Assembly (NCBI GenBank): GCA_024404675.1
Contig: JAKSPO010000001.1
Coordinates: 124,001 to 188,000, forward strand
Direction of reading: 5' to 3'
DNA length: 64,000 nucleotides
Source: Lachnospiraceae bacterium
Lineage (GTDB): Bacteria; Bacillota; Clostridia; Lachnospirales; Lachnospiraceae
Position numbers and translations under genes: made by a program. Every line of letters starts with the position of its first letter. Positions within the stretch are counted from its first letter, which is position 1. Positions 992 to 55,833 of the stretch are shown here, piece after piece. The notes beneath the pieces are model-generated. The model made no database searches. It had not been told where the DNA came from and worked only from the letters and a program-made list of their open reading frames with translations.

Positions 992-1342
992 GGGCTTGTA
1001 CCGGTTTCGACGGGGGTTTTTAAATTGTGATAGCCATCCATGTGCCGGACACATGTAAAAAACCGGACAAACTAAATATATACGCAGATAATAATCTTGC
1101 ATTTGCTGCCTAATGGCAGCTGTCCGACAGAGTGCACCTACGCATTCTGACCCGGGCATCGATTTCGTAGGAAACGACGTGCGGAAAGCTTTGACCGCAT
1201 GGGCGTATGATGAAGCTACTGAAGGTGTTAGCCCGTTTATCGGCAGATCCGGAGGGAATGGCGCAAGCGTGTAGGTAGACTGTGATGGGAGAGGTTGCAA
1301 TGGCGAGGCTTTCGGACAGGGGTTCGACTCCCCTCAGGTCCA
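992..1342 (+). ncRNA. ssrA: Transfer-messenger RNA (tmRNA)
   Basis: This is tmRNA, which with SmpB rescues stalled ribosomes and adds a degradation tag. The 5' end GGGCTTG (992-998) pairs over seven positions with CAGGTCC (1335-1341), forming the tRNA-like acceptor stem. The hallmark TTTCGACGGGG follows the 5' end, and the T-arm GGTTCGACTCC lies near the 3' end. The tag frame begins with resume codon GCA at 1084 and reads ADNNLAFAA, then TAA at 1111-1113. The stop codon sits in the loop of a GCTGCC/GGCAGC hairpin, as is usual for tmRNA. The discriminator is A1342 and CCA is not encoded (TCT follows), so CCA must be added after processing. The tag ends in AA, as needed for ClpXP-type proteases. 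Confidence 0.95.
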
Positions 1343-1378
1343 TCTTCCTTCGGGAAGTGGAATATGTGTAATGAAGAT

Positions 1379-7235: not shown

Positions 7236-7264
7236 TTGACAAATGTATTTTTGTAAGCTATGAT
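7236..7264 (+). promoter_or_regulatory. Promoter of the T-box leader
   Basis: TTGACA (7236-7241), a 17-base spacer and TATGAT (7259-7264) form a near-consensus sigma-A promoter just before the T-box leader. Confidence 0.8.
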
Positions 7265-7284
7265 TGCAGACAGAATTGAATAAC

Positions 7285-7548
7285 TTGCGTTGATAAGGAA
7301 TAGTACCGAGCTGATCGGGTTTCAGAAAACTGTCGGTTGATGCGAGACAGTCGAAGATATCTTGGGAACTCGCCTTGGAGCAGCGGATTGAAGACATTTG
7401 ATGTTGTGTAGACACCGCCGGAGGCCCACCGTTAGAGGGGCAGAGCATCGAGTATATCTGTGCTTGTTTGAGATGATAGATTATCATAAAGTAGAGTGGT
7501 ACCGCGTATATTACGCCTCTATTCCGAAAGGAGTGGAGGCGTTTTTTA
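7285..7548 (+). promoter_or_regulatory. Leucine-specific T-box riboswitch leader
   Basis: This leader reads the charging state of a tRNA and controls transcription antitermination. Stem I starts with GCGTTG paired to CAGCG, and has a GA-type kink-turn. The specifier loop shows AGTA (7302-7305) opposite GAA (7366-7368), and the trinucleotide right after GAA is CTC (7369-7371), a leucine codon. The apical part CTGTC-GGTTGATGCGA-GACAG fits the stem I distal loop. The T-box AGAGTGGTACCGCG is at 7493-7506; its TGGT bulge pairs with an ACCA tRNA end, and tRNA-Leu has discriminator A. A terminator follows. High Leu-tRNA charging should stop transcription and leucine starvation should allow it. Its target is unexpected, being an isomerase/acyl-CoA ligase fusion and not a synthetase or ilv/leu gene. 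Confidence 0.9.
7513..7547 (+). terminator. T-box terminator
   Basis: ACGCCTC (7513-7519) pairs with GAGGCGT (7536-7542), with an inner CC/GG helix, and is followed by TTTTTT. The alternative antiterminator would use the T-box motif at 7493-7506. Confidence 0.85.
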
Positions 7549-7627
7549 ATTGTATTAAACGGCACCGGCCATTTATGAATAGGAAATGCAAGTAAGAATT
7601 CTAAATTATATTTGGAGGTTTTAGAAT

Positions 7628-10150
7628 ATGAAGATCAGTTTTTCAACGCTTGGATGTCCGGATTATTCCTGGACTGACATTTACACCATGGCGAAAGACC
7701 TTGGGTATCACGGAATTGAGGTTCGTGGTCTTGGTGAAGACATCAGTGTTTACAAGGCAAAGCCCTTCGCAGACAGCAATGTTGATGCGACGGCAGAGAA
7801 GCTTCGCGAGATTGGACTTGAGATTTCCTGCTTCTCCTCAGGCTGCGTATTGAAGTATCAGGATAACCTTGCTCGTTCCGTGGAAGAGCTTACCGCATAT
7901 GCAAAGCTTGCCAATAAGCTTGGCACCTGCTATATCCGCGTTCTTGCCGATGAGAATCCGAAGCCCGAGGGAGATGTGGATGACGCACAGATTATTGAAG
8001 CCTTGAAGCTTCTTGTTCCGATCGCTGAGGAATACAATGTAACGATGTGCGTTGAGACAAACGGTGTATATTCCGACACAAAGCGTCTTAGAAATATTCT
8101 TGATGCCGTAAACTGCAGAAAGATTGCTGCACTTTGGGATATTCACCATCCTTACCGGAACTGCGGCGAGACACCCGCCGAGACGGTTGCAAATCTTGGT
8201 GAGTTCATCAAATATGTACATGTTAAGGATTCCGTTTGCGTAAACGGTGAGGTTTCCTACCGTATGATGGGACAGGGCGATATGCCGCTTGCCGAGGTAT
8301 GGGAGGCTCTTAAGAGCATGCATTATACCGGTTATGTTTCCCTTGAGTGGGTTAAGCGTTGGAGTAAGGAGCTTGCGGATGCTTGGACCGTATTCCCGCA
8401 GTTCGCTCACTATATGGCTCCTTATAAGACGATTCACAAGAACCCGCTTCAGGTAAGCAATCGTGGCGTCGGCAACTATATCTGGCCGAAGAACCATCTG
8501 ATTCCTTATACCTTCCCGGATGTACTGGATCGTATCTGTGAGGTATTCCCGACCCAGTATGCATTCCGTTATACCGAGCTTGATTATACAAGAACCTATC
8601 CGGAGTTCCGTGATGATGTGGATAATTTCGCACGTGCTTTGATCGCCATGGGCGTTAAGAAGGGCGACCATGTAGCAATCTGGGCAACCAACGTACCCGC
8701 ATGGTATATTACCTTCTGGGCTACCACGAAGATCGGTGCTGTTTTGGTTACGGTCAATACCGCATACAAGATTCATGAGATCGAGTATCTGCTTCGTCAG
8801 TCCGATACCCATACGCTTGTTATGATTGACGGCTTCAAGGATTGTGACTATGTTGGAATCGTTAAGGAGCTTTGCCCTGAGCTTGAAACAAGCGTTCCCG
8901 GTGAGCTGCACGCAGAACGTCTTCCCGTACTTAGAAATATCGTTACCGTTGACAGTAAGCAGAAGGGTTGCTTTACTTGGGATGAGGCATTGGAACTTGG
9001 TTCCGAGATTCCTTATACCGAGGTTGAGAACCGTCGTAGAATGATCGATAAGGATGATGTCTGCAACATGCAGTACACTTCCGGTACGACCGGCTTCCCG
9101 AAGGGTGTTATGCTTACCCACTATAACGTAGTTAATAACGGTAAAGCAATCGGTGACTGTATGGACCTTTCTACCGAGGACCGTATGATGATTCAGGTTC
9201 CGATGTTCCATTGCTTCGGTATGGTACTTGCAATGACTGCATCCGTAACACACGGTGTTACCATGAGCCCGATTCCGGCATTTTCCCCGAGAAAGGGTCT
9301 CAAGTGTATCAACCAGGAGAAGATTACCTGCTTCCACGGTGTACCGACGATGTTCATCGCTATGCTTGGACATGAGGATTTCGATAAGACGGATTTCTCC
9401 CATATGCGTACCGGTATCATGGCTGGTTCTCCTTGCCCGATCAAGGCAATGCAGGATGTTATTGAGAAGATGCATATGCCTGAGATCTGCATTACCTATG
9501 GTCAGACCGAGGCTTCTCCGGCAACTACCATGAGTAAGACGACCGATTCCATTGAAACCCGTGTTAATACTGTAGGTGGTCCGATTTACGCCGTAGAGTG
9601 TAAGATTGTTGATCCCGAGACCGGTAAGGATCTTCCGGACAATGTTGACGGTGAGTTCGTTGCCCGCGGTTATAATATCATGAAGGGCTATTATAAGATG
9701 CCTGAGGCTACCGCTGCAGCAATCGACGAGAACGGCTGGTTACATACCGGTGACCTTGCAAGAAGACTTCCCGACGGTAACTACAAGATTACCGGACGTA
9801 TCAAGGATATGATTATCCGTGGTGGTGAGAACATCTACCCGAAGGAGATCGAGGACTTCCTTTATACCTATCCGAAGGTAAATGATGTACAGGTTATCGG
9901 TGTTCCGGACAAGGATTACGGTGAGGAGATTATGGCCTGTATCGTATTGAAGCCCGGCGAGACCGCAACCGAAGAGGAGATTAAGACCTTCGTTCGTGAC
10001 CATATGGCTAAGCATAAGGTTCCTCGCTATGTAGATTTCGTAGAGGGCTTCCCGATGAATGCAGCCGGCAAGATCCTCAAGTATAAGATGCGTGAGGAAG
10101 CAGTAGAGCGTCATAACCTTCAGCAGGCAAGTAAGATTGAGACTGCTTAA
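7628..10150 (+). CDS. Fusion of TIM-barrel sugar isomerase/epimerase and AMP-forming acyl-CoA synthetase
   Basis: This 840-residue protein joins two enzymes. Residues 1-270 are a xylose-isomerase-like TIM barrel; likely metal ligands are in CVETNG, ALWDIHHPY, YVHVKD and SLEWVK. Residues about 290-830 are an ANL-family acyl-CoA synthetase with P-loop YTSGTTGFPKG near residue 482, YGQTEAS, the hinge motif GRIKDMIIRGGENIYPKE and catalytic lysine in AAGKILK. The ligase half most resembles medium/long-chain fatty acyl-CoA synthetases; its acyl substrate cannot be read from sequence. GGAGG lies 9 bases before the ATG. The gene has its own Leu T-box and is followed by tRNA-Trp, so it is monocistronic. 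Leucine control suggests a link to branched-chain acids (isovalerate or related), which is an inference. Confidence 0.85.
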   Translation: MKISFSTLGCPDYSWTDIYTMAKDLGYHGIEVRGLGEDISVYKAKPFADSNVDATAEKLREIGLEISCFSSGCVLKYQDNLARSVEELTAYAKLANKLGTCYIRVLADENPKPEGDVDDAQIIEALKLLVPIAEEYNVTMCVETNGVYSDTKRLRNILDAVNCRKIAALWDIHHPYRNCGETPAETVANLGEFIKYVHVKDSVCVNGEVSYRMMGQGDMPLAEVWEALKSMHYTGYVSLEWVKRWSKELADAWTVFPQFAHYMAPYKTIHKNPLQVSNRGVGNYIWPKNHLIPYTFPDVLDRICEVFPTQYAFRYTELDYTRTYPEFRDDVDNFARALIAMGVKKGDHVAIWATNVPAWYITFWATTKIGAVLVTVNTAYKIHEIEYLLRQSDTHTLVMIDGFKDCDYVGIVKELCPELETSVPGELHAERLPVLRNIVTVDSKQKGCFTWDEALELGSEIPYTEVENRRRMIDKDDVCNMQYTSGTTGFPKGVMLTHYNVVNNGKAIGDCMDLSTEDRMMIQVPMFHCFGMVLAMTASVTHGVTMSPIPAFSPRKGLKCINQEKITCFHGVPTMFIAMLGHEDFDKTDFSHMRTGIMAGSPCPIKAMQDVIEKMHMPEICITYGQTEASPATTMSKTTDSIETRVNTVGGPIYAVECKIVDPETGKDLPDNVDGEFVARGYNIMKGYYKMPEATAAAIDENGWLHTGDLARRLPDGNYKITGRIKDMIIRGGENIYPKEIEDFLYTYPKVNDVQVIGVPDKDYGEEIMACIVLKPGETATEEEIKTFVRDHMAKHKVPRYVDFVEGFPMNAAGKILKYKMREEAVERHNLQQASKIETA

Positions 10151-17692: not shown

Positions 17693-17865
17693 GAAAATAG
17701 ATTCCTGGGATGTTCGATAACTCCTGTATTTTTGAACCTACAACTTTAAAAAGGGATTCCTATATCGGTAAGTGGATGTCAGGCCTCCTTCGAGTGGAAG
17801 GCAGCAAGCTTACTTGCGGTTACCCACCTGGCTTATGTGCTGGGAGTCAAAAAGCAGGAACCGGC
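17693..17865 (+). ncRNA. ssrS: 6S RNA (candidate)
   Basis: This stretch has its own promoter and no good gene, and looks like 6S RNA, which binds sigma-A RNA polymerase by mimicking an open promoter. The 5' segment TTCCTG (17702-17707) pairs with CAGGAA (17855-17860) to close a long rod of about 165 bases. The 5' arm carries GGGATGTTCG and a TTTTTGAACCTACAAC element that resembles the one in Firmicute 6S RNAs. A terminator follows at 17893. The exact ends are uncertain and no covariance search was run. Confidence 0.7.
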
Positions 17866-17892
17866 ATCTTGGGATTTTTGGGCGCATTATGG

Positions 17893-55698: not shown

Positions 55699-55727
55699 AT
55701 GTGCGGACGTATCCTTAGATCGTTCCG

Positions 55728-55816
55728 TTGCTTCCTTACACCGGTATTAGCCGGATCAAGTTATGAGGGTTCCCGGATAAATCCGGTTCTCAGCGCGTAT
55801 GGCACCCCTAGCAAAT
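55728..55816 (-). promoter_or_regulatory. TPP riboswitch (thi-box)
   Basis: Read on the - strand the conserved parts appear in order: GGGGTGCC, GCTGAGA, ACCCTC, AACTTGATCCGG, TAATACCGG and GTAAGGAAGC. This is the thiamine diphosphate aptamer, which lowers expression of thiT-thiN when TPP is plentiful. Confidence 0.95.
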
Positions 55817-55833
55817 ATTTATATTGTGCTTCG

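Follow-up and report, generated by a model that had tools for sequence, protein, structure and literature searches.

The locus raises the question why a leucine T-box should precede a gene for an acyl-CoA ligase fusion. The window, i.e., the whole stretch of DNA analysed (64,000 nucleotides), was studied together with the genome of the gut bacterium to which it belongs (the host genome) and with orthologous loci. Quite probably the T-box drives a ligase that activates isovalerate for carboxylation to leucine by a ketoisovalerate:ferredoxin oxidoreductase (VOR), where we infer both the substrate and the direction of the VOR reaction. The features are:

7236..7264, forward strand: sigma-70-type promoter (TTGACA 7236-7241, 17-nt spacer, TATGAT 7259-7264), by sequence reading
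7281..7523, forward strand: T-box riboswitch RF00230, whole model 1-219, by Rfam covariance model
7302-7305, forward strand: AGTA of the specifier loop, by sequence reading
7366-7368, forward strand: GAA preceding the specifier, by sequence reading
7369..7371, forward strand: specifier codon CTC (Leu), by covariance model and the frame rule from the host's own T-boxes
7493..7506, forward strand: T-box sequence AGAGTGGTACCGCG with the UGGU bulge at 7497-7500, by sequence reading
7513..7547, forward strand: intrinsic terminator hairpin (about 7513-7542) and T-run, by sequence, the hairpin being present in both computed folds
7614-7618, forward strand: GGAGG, by sequence reading
7628, forward strand: ATG start of the fusion gene, by sequence reading
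7628..10150, forward strand: fusion gene, 840 aa, predicted isovalerate:CoA ligase (Pfam, NCBIfam and AlphaFold model; substrate presumed)

The leader is a real T-box with a CUC (Leu) specifier. The original prediction had named its parts (AGTA/GAA specifier loop with CTC, T-box sequence, terminator), and these are confirmed by sequence reading and by a match to RF00230 that scores 107.0 bits (gathering score 93; E 1.2e-22). It is the sole T-box match (Rfam) within the window and one of 10 T-boxes at E <= 0.001 (Rfam) in the whole host genome. MFE folding of the leader beats shuffles only mildly (z -1.63, 11 of 200 shuffles as good); its identity is carried by the covariance model. The T-box stem of the model alignment and the terminator hairpin at 7513-7542 overlap in bases, as judged by sequence only. 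Leu-specific T-boxes have the same build (stem I with the AGTA/GAA loop, CUC specifier, UGGU bulge, terminator), and the leader is an ordinary member of the known T-box class; it differs from them in its gene, which is an acyl-CoA ligase fusion and not a synthetase, a classical amino acid synthesis gene or a transporter. The claim that leuS (about 59201, named by eye) lacks a T-box was also correct, with no Rfam match there. Neither a motif scan nor the Rfam genome search found a T-box at the host operon leuA-leuC-leuD-leuB-ilvB.

The specifier was read with the rule codon-N-5nt-GAG/GAT, which gives several matches per leader; of these, the match on the 3' flank of the specifier loop was picked by eye. 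Tried on eight other host T-boxes whose downstream gene's amino acid could be named by eye, the rule was correct in seven (valS GTA, tyrS TAC, trpE TGG, pheS TTC, metG ATG, trpB TGG, ileS ATC); for the eighth, that of thrS, it yields CCA, and ACC sits one base upstream. The covariance model places CTC where this rule does. In the accessible part of PMC7778990 the specifier is defined as positions 2-4 counted from the 3' end of the bulge, and CUC is given as the specifier of 74% of the Leu T-boxes in TBDB; in the leader, CTC is followed by G and then by the closing helix, in agreement with the position rule.

The UGGU bulge suits a tRNA with discriminator base A, and the six host Leu tRNAs end in A (by eye). 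A pattern search for tRNA-Leu(GAG) gave no answer, and the 10 long tRNAs among 37 tRNA matches in the host genome were read instead (six Leu, four Ser). The Leu anticodons are UAA, UAG twice, CAG, CAA and AAG. There is no tRNA-Leu(GAG) among these 10 long tRNAs of the 37 matches, in a genome 98.66% complete; tRNA-Leu(AAG) reads CUC only after editing of A34 to inosine.

The first gene had been described as an isomerase-like/acyl-CoA ligase fusion, and Pfam matches above cut-offs bear this out: PF01261 (residues 22-245, 104.7 bits), PF00501 (302-689, 307.9 bits) and PF13193 (740-815, 69.8 bits). A xylose isomerase-like TIM barrel occupies approximately residues 1-280 and an AMP-forming acyl-CoA ligase approximately 290-835. 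In the structure search the AlphaFold model resembles 4-coumarate:CoA ligase (5bsr, E 7.1e-43); its best 50 rows consist of adenylate-forming proteins of the ligase fold, which are of no help for the TIM barrel. By sequence search the barrel has weak matches to MJ1311, D-tagatose 3-epimerase, 2zds and AsbF. Its residues E143, D171, H174 and E240, which we take to be the Glu/Asp/His/Glu metal ligands, are conserved in 26 of 27 aligned relatives; in relative L138, H174 and E240 are lost. The best NCBIfam match is PRK12583 (NF009233) with 697.6 bits (699.4 for the ligase part alone), below the curated score of 832, and the ligase is apparently a relative of PRK12583 outside that family. No profile model singles out isovalerate among short acids, as the top NCBIfam match is a generic fatty-acid ligase at a sub-cut-off score, and the MbcS model NF047394 is absent from the 25 best models listed for the whole protein and for the ligase part alone.

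Orthologues were compared at 80 loci, four of which have less than 400 nt of upstream sequence. A T-box lies upstream of the fusion in 15 of them, with a CTC specifier in every case (Rfam E <= 0.001 for all, nine above the gathering score); in L042 and L047 a small ORF stands between T-box and fusion. Weak T-box-like motifs in L027, L039 and L065 were left out of this count. Three further relatives (G120, G096, G081) carry a CTC T-box before a LeuA-like gene and the fusion. A screen for leader peptides, i.e., short upstream ORFs in which 5 or more of 9 residues are Leu, returned 15 of the 80 loci against 2.45 expected from shuffles. Eight were accepted by eye (L058, L061, L076, L077, L081, L084, L085, L088), and six of these (L061, L076, L081, L084, L085, L088) have a terminator-like hairpin between leader peptide and gene. 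The Leu-rich ORFs of L027, L033, L037, L045, L055, L086 and L047 pass the count and were rejected by eye; L047 has a T-box. Among the 65 loci without a T-box, at least 6 identical residues in 10 are reached by Leu in five, by Asp in one and by other residues in none. At E <= 0.01, Rfam has no match in the leaders of L058, L081, L084 and L088. In 57 of the 80 loci, including L023 and L043 of R. flavefaciens, there is no T-box motif and no leader peptide that was accepted. Leucine control appears to track the fusion gene, by two mechanisms with one signal.

In the proposed pathway the T-box would act as a transcription attenuator that binds uncharged tRNA-Leu, and when leucine is short RNA polymerase would read through into the single TIM-barrel/acyl-CoA ligase fusion gene. 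The ligase would convert isovalerate (3-methylbutyrate) to isovaleryl-CoA, VorDBAC, a ketoisovalerate-type ferredoxin oxidoreductase, would carboxylate this to 2-ketoisocaproate, and a branched-chain transaminase would form leucine. Isovalerate is an amino acid fermentation product in rumen and hindgut; VOR is reversible and can work in degradation.

The distribution of VorB, a subunit of VOR, is consistent with this pathway. In a family sample of 150 genomes (10 fusion carriers and 140 others) VorB is above cut-off in 9 of 10 carriers versus 5 of 140 others (Fisher p 2.3e-10), and of 40 fusion genomes drawn from several families, a set that has no matched control, 38 have it. VorB above cut-off is lacking in carrier G115, and both VorB and LeuB above cut-off in fusion genomes G150 and G151, the former holding the second-nearest orthologue, which has a CTC T-box; gaps in the assemblies may be the reason. 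Among the 150 family genomes, 134 have LeuB above cut-off, but of the 10 carriers the host genome is the only one with an intact LeuB, which is absent from eight and split in a ninth. Loss of LeuB as a general rule was rejected, with LeuB found in 23 of 40 fusion genomes beyond the family sample; given these 23 and the window's own genome, the isovalerate pathway would often supplement de novo synthesis.

The other branched-chain amino acids appear to have parallel systems. In the host, VorB is above cut-off at contig C29, 8912-9976, with VorA, VorC and a ferredoxin-like ORF, in an operon of the order Ile T-box, HTH-cupin-MbcS-like ligase, P-loop ATPase, ferredoxin-like VorD, VorB, VorA, VorC, which would lead from 2-methylbutyrate to isoleucine. 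The best model of its ligase is MbcS NF047394 (430 bits against a curated 850), and MbcS is the best family model of all tested Ile/Val T-box ligases, each below cut-off. In the relative G075 a Val T-box precedes an MbcS-like ligase, IlvE (above cut-off), P-loop ATPase, VorD, VorB, VorA and VorC, seemingly a complete set from isobutyrate to valine. T-box control of VOR is rare, with two of nine VOR regions in the family sample (L128, L137) and one of a second set of 20 (L192). In L181 the Ile T-box close to VOR precedes an ilvA-like ORF (label by eye) and was removed from the ligase set; another T-box of L181 precedes a tyrS-like ORF (label by eye).

The 80 loci were searched for an operon conserved around the fusion. 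Most have no pathway neighbour, and the sole pathway-linked partner is an MbcS-like ligase, which adjoins the fusion in five. It lies 19-59 nt upstream on the same strand in L013, L050, L066 and L069 (47-50% identity to the host's own), and L062 has the fusion with its CTC T-box and, divergently beside it, an HTH-cupin-MbcS-like ligase that has an ATC T-box.

Several other accounts of the leader and its gene were weighed. The leader might be misassigned, or left over from a leucine gene that was lost, and stand before the fusion by chance; the 57 loci without a detected leucine element speak for this. CTC leaders before the fusion in 15 orthologues of the 80 show, however, that it is no such relic, and Leu-rich leader peptides elsewhere add to this; the orthologues largely refute the reading, which is hardly credible. 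Two outcomes had been set to refute the original prediction, namely a different specifier in the covariance model and orthologue leaders that belong to a deleted gene; neither was observed, and the prediction is supported. The original prediction had hinted at a role for isovalerate, isocaproate or another leucine-derived acid. Isocaproate or 2-hydroxyisocaproate, from reductive leucine fermentation with leucine control as feedback on breakdown, is very unlikely. Longer acids are possible in view of the best NCBIfam models, which describe generic fatty-acid ligases, but T-boxes raise expression upon lack of the cognate amino acid, the wrong sign for breakdown, and no recurrent pathway neighbours were noticed in the 80 loci, whose neighbours were clustered and not all named. 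Among the acids named, the comparative evidence favours isovalerate, most likely the ligase substrate, and the favoured direction, absent from that prediction, is leucine synthesis from isovalerate and not breakdown.

Isovaleryl-CoA could also prime iso-branched membrane fatty acids without any leucine being made: leucine is the normal source of this primer, so its shortage would turn on salvage of external isovalerate, and the same substrate would account for the T-box. S. aureus MbcS has such a role for other isoacids according to the available text of PMC10026030. Against this stand the co-occurrence of the fusion with VorB, the state of LeuB in nine of the 10 family-sample carriers, and the Ile/Val T-boxes on ligase and VOR operons, one including the transaminase IlvE, which point to amino acids as the product. 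As sole fate the fatty-acid role is unlikely; both fates could occur at once. A further reading starts from G120, G096 and G081, none of which shows LeuB and whose LeuA-like protein consists of HMGL and LeuA_dimer domains. LeuA-like enzyme, TIM barrel and ligase might catalyse successive steps to isovaleryl-CoA or 2-ketoisocaproate, needing neither LeuB nor outside isovalerate, and the fusion of the window's species would then be a remnant of that route. This is a doubtful proposition; if true, it would be a leucine pathway so far undescribed.

Activation of isovalerate for leucine synthesis is the preferred reading. Weighing against it are the 57 loci without a leucine element, the rarity of T-boxes on VOR, the fusion genomes without VorB, the presence of LeuB in 23 of 40 fusion genomes, the usual lack of pathway neighbours, the reversibility of VOR, the generic profile matches and the absence of tRNA-Leu(GAG) among the long tRNAs read. 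The reading touches several known systems. MbcS of S. aureus (NF047394) likewise activates environmental branched short-chain acids with ATP, as stated in the sections of PMC10026030 at hand; it feeds fatty acids, and the purified enzyme accepts 2-methylbutyrate and isobutyrate and uses isovalerate poorly, so that a separate isovalerate ligase is to be expected. The leucine-controlled fusion, in contrast, is nearest to the PRK12583 subfamily. Leu-rich leader-peptide attenuators are reported from S. aureus in the portion seen of PMC5794164, likewise with a short upstream ORF, whereas here they precede an acyl-CoA ligase fusion in Clostridia. A search of an accessible set of papers found no published T-box use on such a fusion. 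If the reading is true, the T-box-controlled gene set extends to carboxylic acid scavenging, and amino-acid-matched T-boxes on acyl-CoA ligases would be a genetic mark for isoacid-using bacteria.

The isovalerate carboxylation route of leucine synthesis in rumen bacteria was reportedly described by Allison and co-workers in 1962 and 1966. In the extract available, PMC7356843 cites rumen carboxylation of isovalerate to leucine and 1960s work by which rumen bacteria make Leu, Ile and Val from isovalerate, 2-methylbutyrate and isobutyrate; isoacids serve as ruminant feed additives (PMC12272956, as far as its accessible text goes). Acid, product and habitat are shared with the present case; the pathway was described there, whereas a gene for the ligase and control of this gene by leucine are proposed here. 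They would supply candidate genes and wiring for that pathway and, if the reading is true, a concrete gene for its isovalerate-activating step. Orthologues exist in R. flavefaciens, where two genomes (L023/G158, L043/G167) carry both the fusion and VorB.

The original prediction placed a T-box ahead of an isomerase-like/acyl-CoA ligase fusion, and this is borne out by the Rfam covariance model, which finds a single T-box in the window (RF00230, 107 bits, E 1.2e-22). From the sequence, it sits between an upstream TTGACA/TATGAT promoter and a downstream terminator. The 840-aa ORF directly after the leader joins a xylose-isomerase-like TIM barrel (PF01261) to a complete AMP-forming acyl-CoA ligase (PF00501 + PF13193). 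It is a solitary gene, followed by a tRNA-Trp, a 136-aa ORF and three ORFs whose proteins, on inspection, look like a DHH-family protein, Tgt and YajC. These two features and three further Rfam matches in the window are:

7281-7523, plus strand, T-box
7628-10150, plus strand, fusion gene
992-1345, plus strand, tmRNA
17699-17879, plus strand, 6S RNA
55716-55819, minus strand, TPP riboswitch

The structure of the fusion was predicted from 28 aligned sequences (mean pLDDT 84, pTM 0.66), and in a structure search the ligase part of the model matched 4-coumarate:CoA ligases. Identity to the window protein in 27 relatives is lower for the TIM barrel (27-83%) than for the ligase (65-93%), and in genome G075 the barrel has lost two putative metal residues; the ligase reaction may therefore proceed without it.

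Ten T-boxes were found in the window's own genome, eight of them preceding genes whose amino acid can be named by eye from the protein. The specifier was read at the 3' side of the specifier loop as a codon followed by one base, five bases, and GAG or GAT; this pattern matches several times per leader, and the match at the loop was picked by eye. The rule was correct for seven of the eight T-boxes, the exception being thrS, for which it reads CCA, and ACC lies a single base further upstream. The TBDB paper (PMC7778990) gives an equivalent position rule and reports that 74% of leucine specifiers are CUC. Applied to the window leader the rule yields CTC, in agreement with the leucine specifier predicted originally; the tenth T-box of the genome yields ATC. 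The window T-box has a UGGU bulge, and all six Leu tRNAs read from the genome have A as their last base. No tRNA-Leu(GAG) is among these six, and just one of the long tRNAs that were read decodes CUY:

Contig C6, 45062-45144 (locus L203), tRNA-Leu, anticodon AAG

Pairing with the CUC specifier would therefore need inosine at position 34.

One scan of named genomes gave at least 80 full-length orthologues of the fusion with 70-90% identity; among the matches listed, the hosts are mostly Lachnospiraceae, Oscillospiraceae and Ruminococcus of rumen and hindgut. Comparison of the leaders placed a CTC T-box ahead of the same gene in 15 of the 80 loci listed. All 15 match the Rfam model with E between 8.5e-29 and 4.9e-07, nine of them above its gathering score, and all carry the CTC specifier, while the triplet before it varies (GAA, CAA, CAG, CCT, TAG, TTT, ATA, CAT). 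Weak T-box-like matches in L027 and L039 were left out. A small ORF separates T-box and fusion in L042 and L047; it reads as a membrane protein and may resemble DUF1294. Leucine-rich leader peptides were accepted by eye in eight loci without a T-box (L058, L061, L076, L077, L081, L084, L085, L088). A terminator-like hairpin lies between peptide and fusion in six of them (absent in L058 and L077), in a loose scan that was also positive in many other loci. At least five Leu in nine residues occurred in 15 of the 80 loci listed vs 2.45 expected from shuffles, and a comparison of all 20 residues singles out leucine. For four of these leader-peptide loci of Clostridia (L058, L081, L084, L088), an Rfam scan gave no family at E ≤ 0.01. 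No leucine element was detected in 57 of the 80 loci listed, four of which have less than 400 nt of sequence ahead of the fusion. Mapped onto a quick tree of 84 sequences, the T-box label required nine changes and the leader-peptide label four. CTC T-boxes sit in the deepest branches (G081, G120/G096, L079/L087/L089), which suggests that the link between leucine control and the fusion is old, although long branches at those nodes make this unsure.

In the proposed mechanism, leucine shortage would raise uncharged tRNA-Leu, which would bind the T-box and allow the antiterminator to form, so that the fusion is transcribed. Its ligase would convert isovalerate, ATP and CoA to isovaleryl-CoA; a ketoisovalerate-type ferredoxin oxidoreductase (VOR) would then carboxylate isovaleryl-CoA with reduced ferredoxin and CO2 to 2-ketoisocaproate, and a transaminase would form leucine. 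The tRNA-sensing part rests on a well-known class, the T-box riboswitch; from context we infer isovalerate as substrate and the carboxylating direction of VOR. It has long been known, as cited in PMC7356843, that isovalerate is carboxylated to leucine in the rumen. In the literature searched, no paper was found to connect T-boxes with acyl-CoA ligases or reductive carboxylation, judged by title, opening of the abstract or counts of terms; the two main T-box surveys (PMC2271356, PMC2650889) lay outside the search, and an earlier mention is possible. The single paper that combined all the terms of one search was on another topic, the 2-ketoglutarate:ferredoxin oxidoreductase of Bacteroides fragilis (PMC11304471). 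In the main text, PMC2494555 contains no acyl-CoA, ferredoxin or ketoisovalerate, and PMC3766115 no acyl-CoA or ferredoxin.

Among 150 genomes of the window's family, VorB (NF005507) exceeded the cut-off in 14, and reading of the scan results gave ten fusion carriers:

Fusion whole or nearly so: G000 (the window's genome), G134, G039, G120, G096, G081, G075
Fusion cut by a contig end: G092
Fusion in two pieces: G097, G115

VorB is present in nine of these ten (not G115) vs 5/140 other family genomes (p 2.3e-10). It was also found in 38 of 40 further fusion genomes (misses: G150, G151), a set that represents 40 of the 80 loci (13 with T-box, seven with leader peptide), spans several families without a matched control, and shares one genome or more with the family set (G166, apparently the same as G039). 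One family genome that lacks the fusion, G133, has eight VorB-like genes over the cut-off.

LeuB, a step of classical leucine synthesis, exceeded the cut-off in 134/150 family genomes. Of the ten carriers, the window's genome alone has an intact LeuB and G097 has a split one; LeuB is missing from 7/140 non-carriers, incomplete genomes among them (p 1.3e-9, or 5.0e-8 with G097 counted as LeuB-positive). In the window's genome leuA, leuC, leuD, leuB and ilvB lie in a row (leuC, leuD and ilvB named by eye). LeuB was found in 23 of the 40 further fusion genomes, so the classical pathway is not generally replaced. An undescribed LeuB-free route through a LeuA-like protein, the TIM barrel and the ligase, which we regard as improbable, rests on a shortened LeuA relative (PF00682 + PF08502, LeuA_dimer) encoded just upstream of the fusion in G120, G096, G081 and G075, four genomes in which LeuB was not found:

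L130, 4111-5556, shortened LeuA relative
L131, 6136-7527, shortened LeuA relative
L142, 7677-9083, shortened LeuA relative
L138, 6119-7507, shortened LeuA relative

The isovalerate scheme has apparent counterparts for isoleucine and valine. The tenth T-box of the window's genome (ATC) leads a gene run of HTH-cupin-ligase, P-loop ATPase, VorD (a ferredoxin-like ORF), VorB, VorA and VorC:

Contig C29 (L128, 7613-13540), minus strand, Ile T-box operon

The HTH-cupin-ligase has 754 aa, and its best model is MbcS, the S. aureus short-chain acyl-CoA synthetase (430 bits, below the 850 cut-off). An acyl-CoA ligase that carries a DNA-binding/cupin part is in itself unusual. An ATC T-box followed by this gene order, compared without VorD, also occurs in G172, the genome of L057 and a near relative. 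G075 has two adjacent MbcS-like ligases (L137, contig C62, minus strand), one behind an ATC T-box and the other behind a GTA (Val) T-box. The Val operon comprises MbcS-like ligase, IlvE (NF009897, 483 bits, cut-off 307), P-loop ATPase, VorD, VorB, VorA and VorC, a full set for isobutyrate to valine. T-boxes on VOR operons are rare (2/9 VOR regions in one set, 1/20 in another). According to PMC10026030, S. aureus MbcS activates 2-methylbutyrate and isobutyrate, and isovalerate poorly; a separate leucine-controlled isovalerate ligase would thus be needed in the scheme, a place that the fusion would fit. In L013, L050, L066 and L069 an MbcS-like ligase directly precedes the fusion in the same orientation, with 19-59 nt between them. 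In L062 the fusion, with a CTC T-box, has as its divergent neighbour an HTH-cupin-MbcS-like ligase with an ATC T-box.
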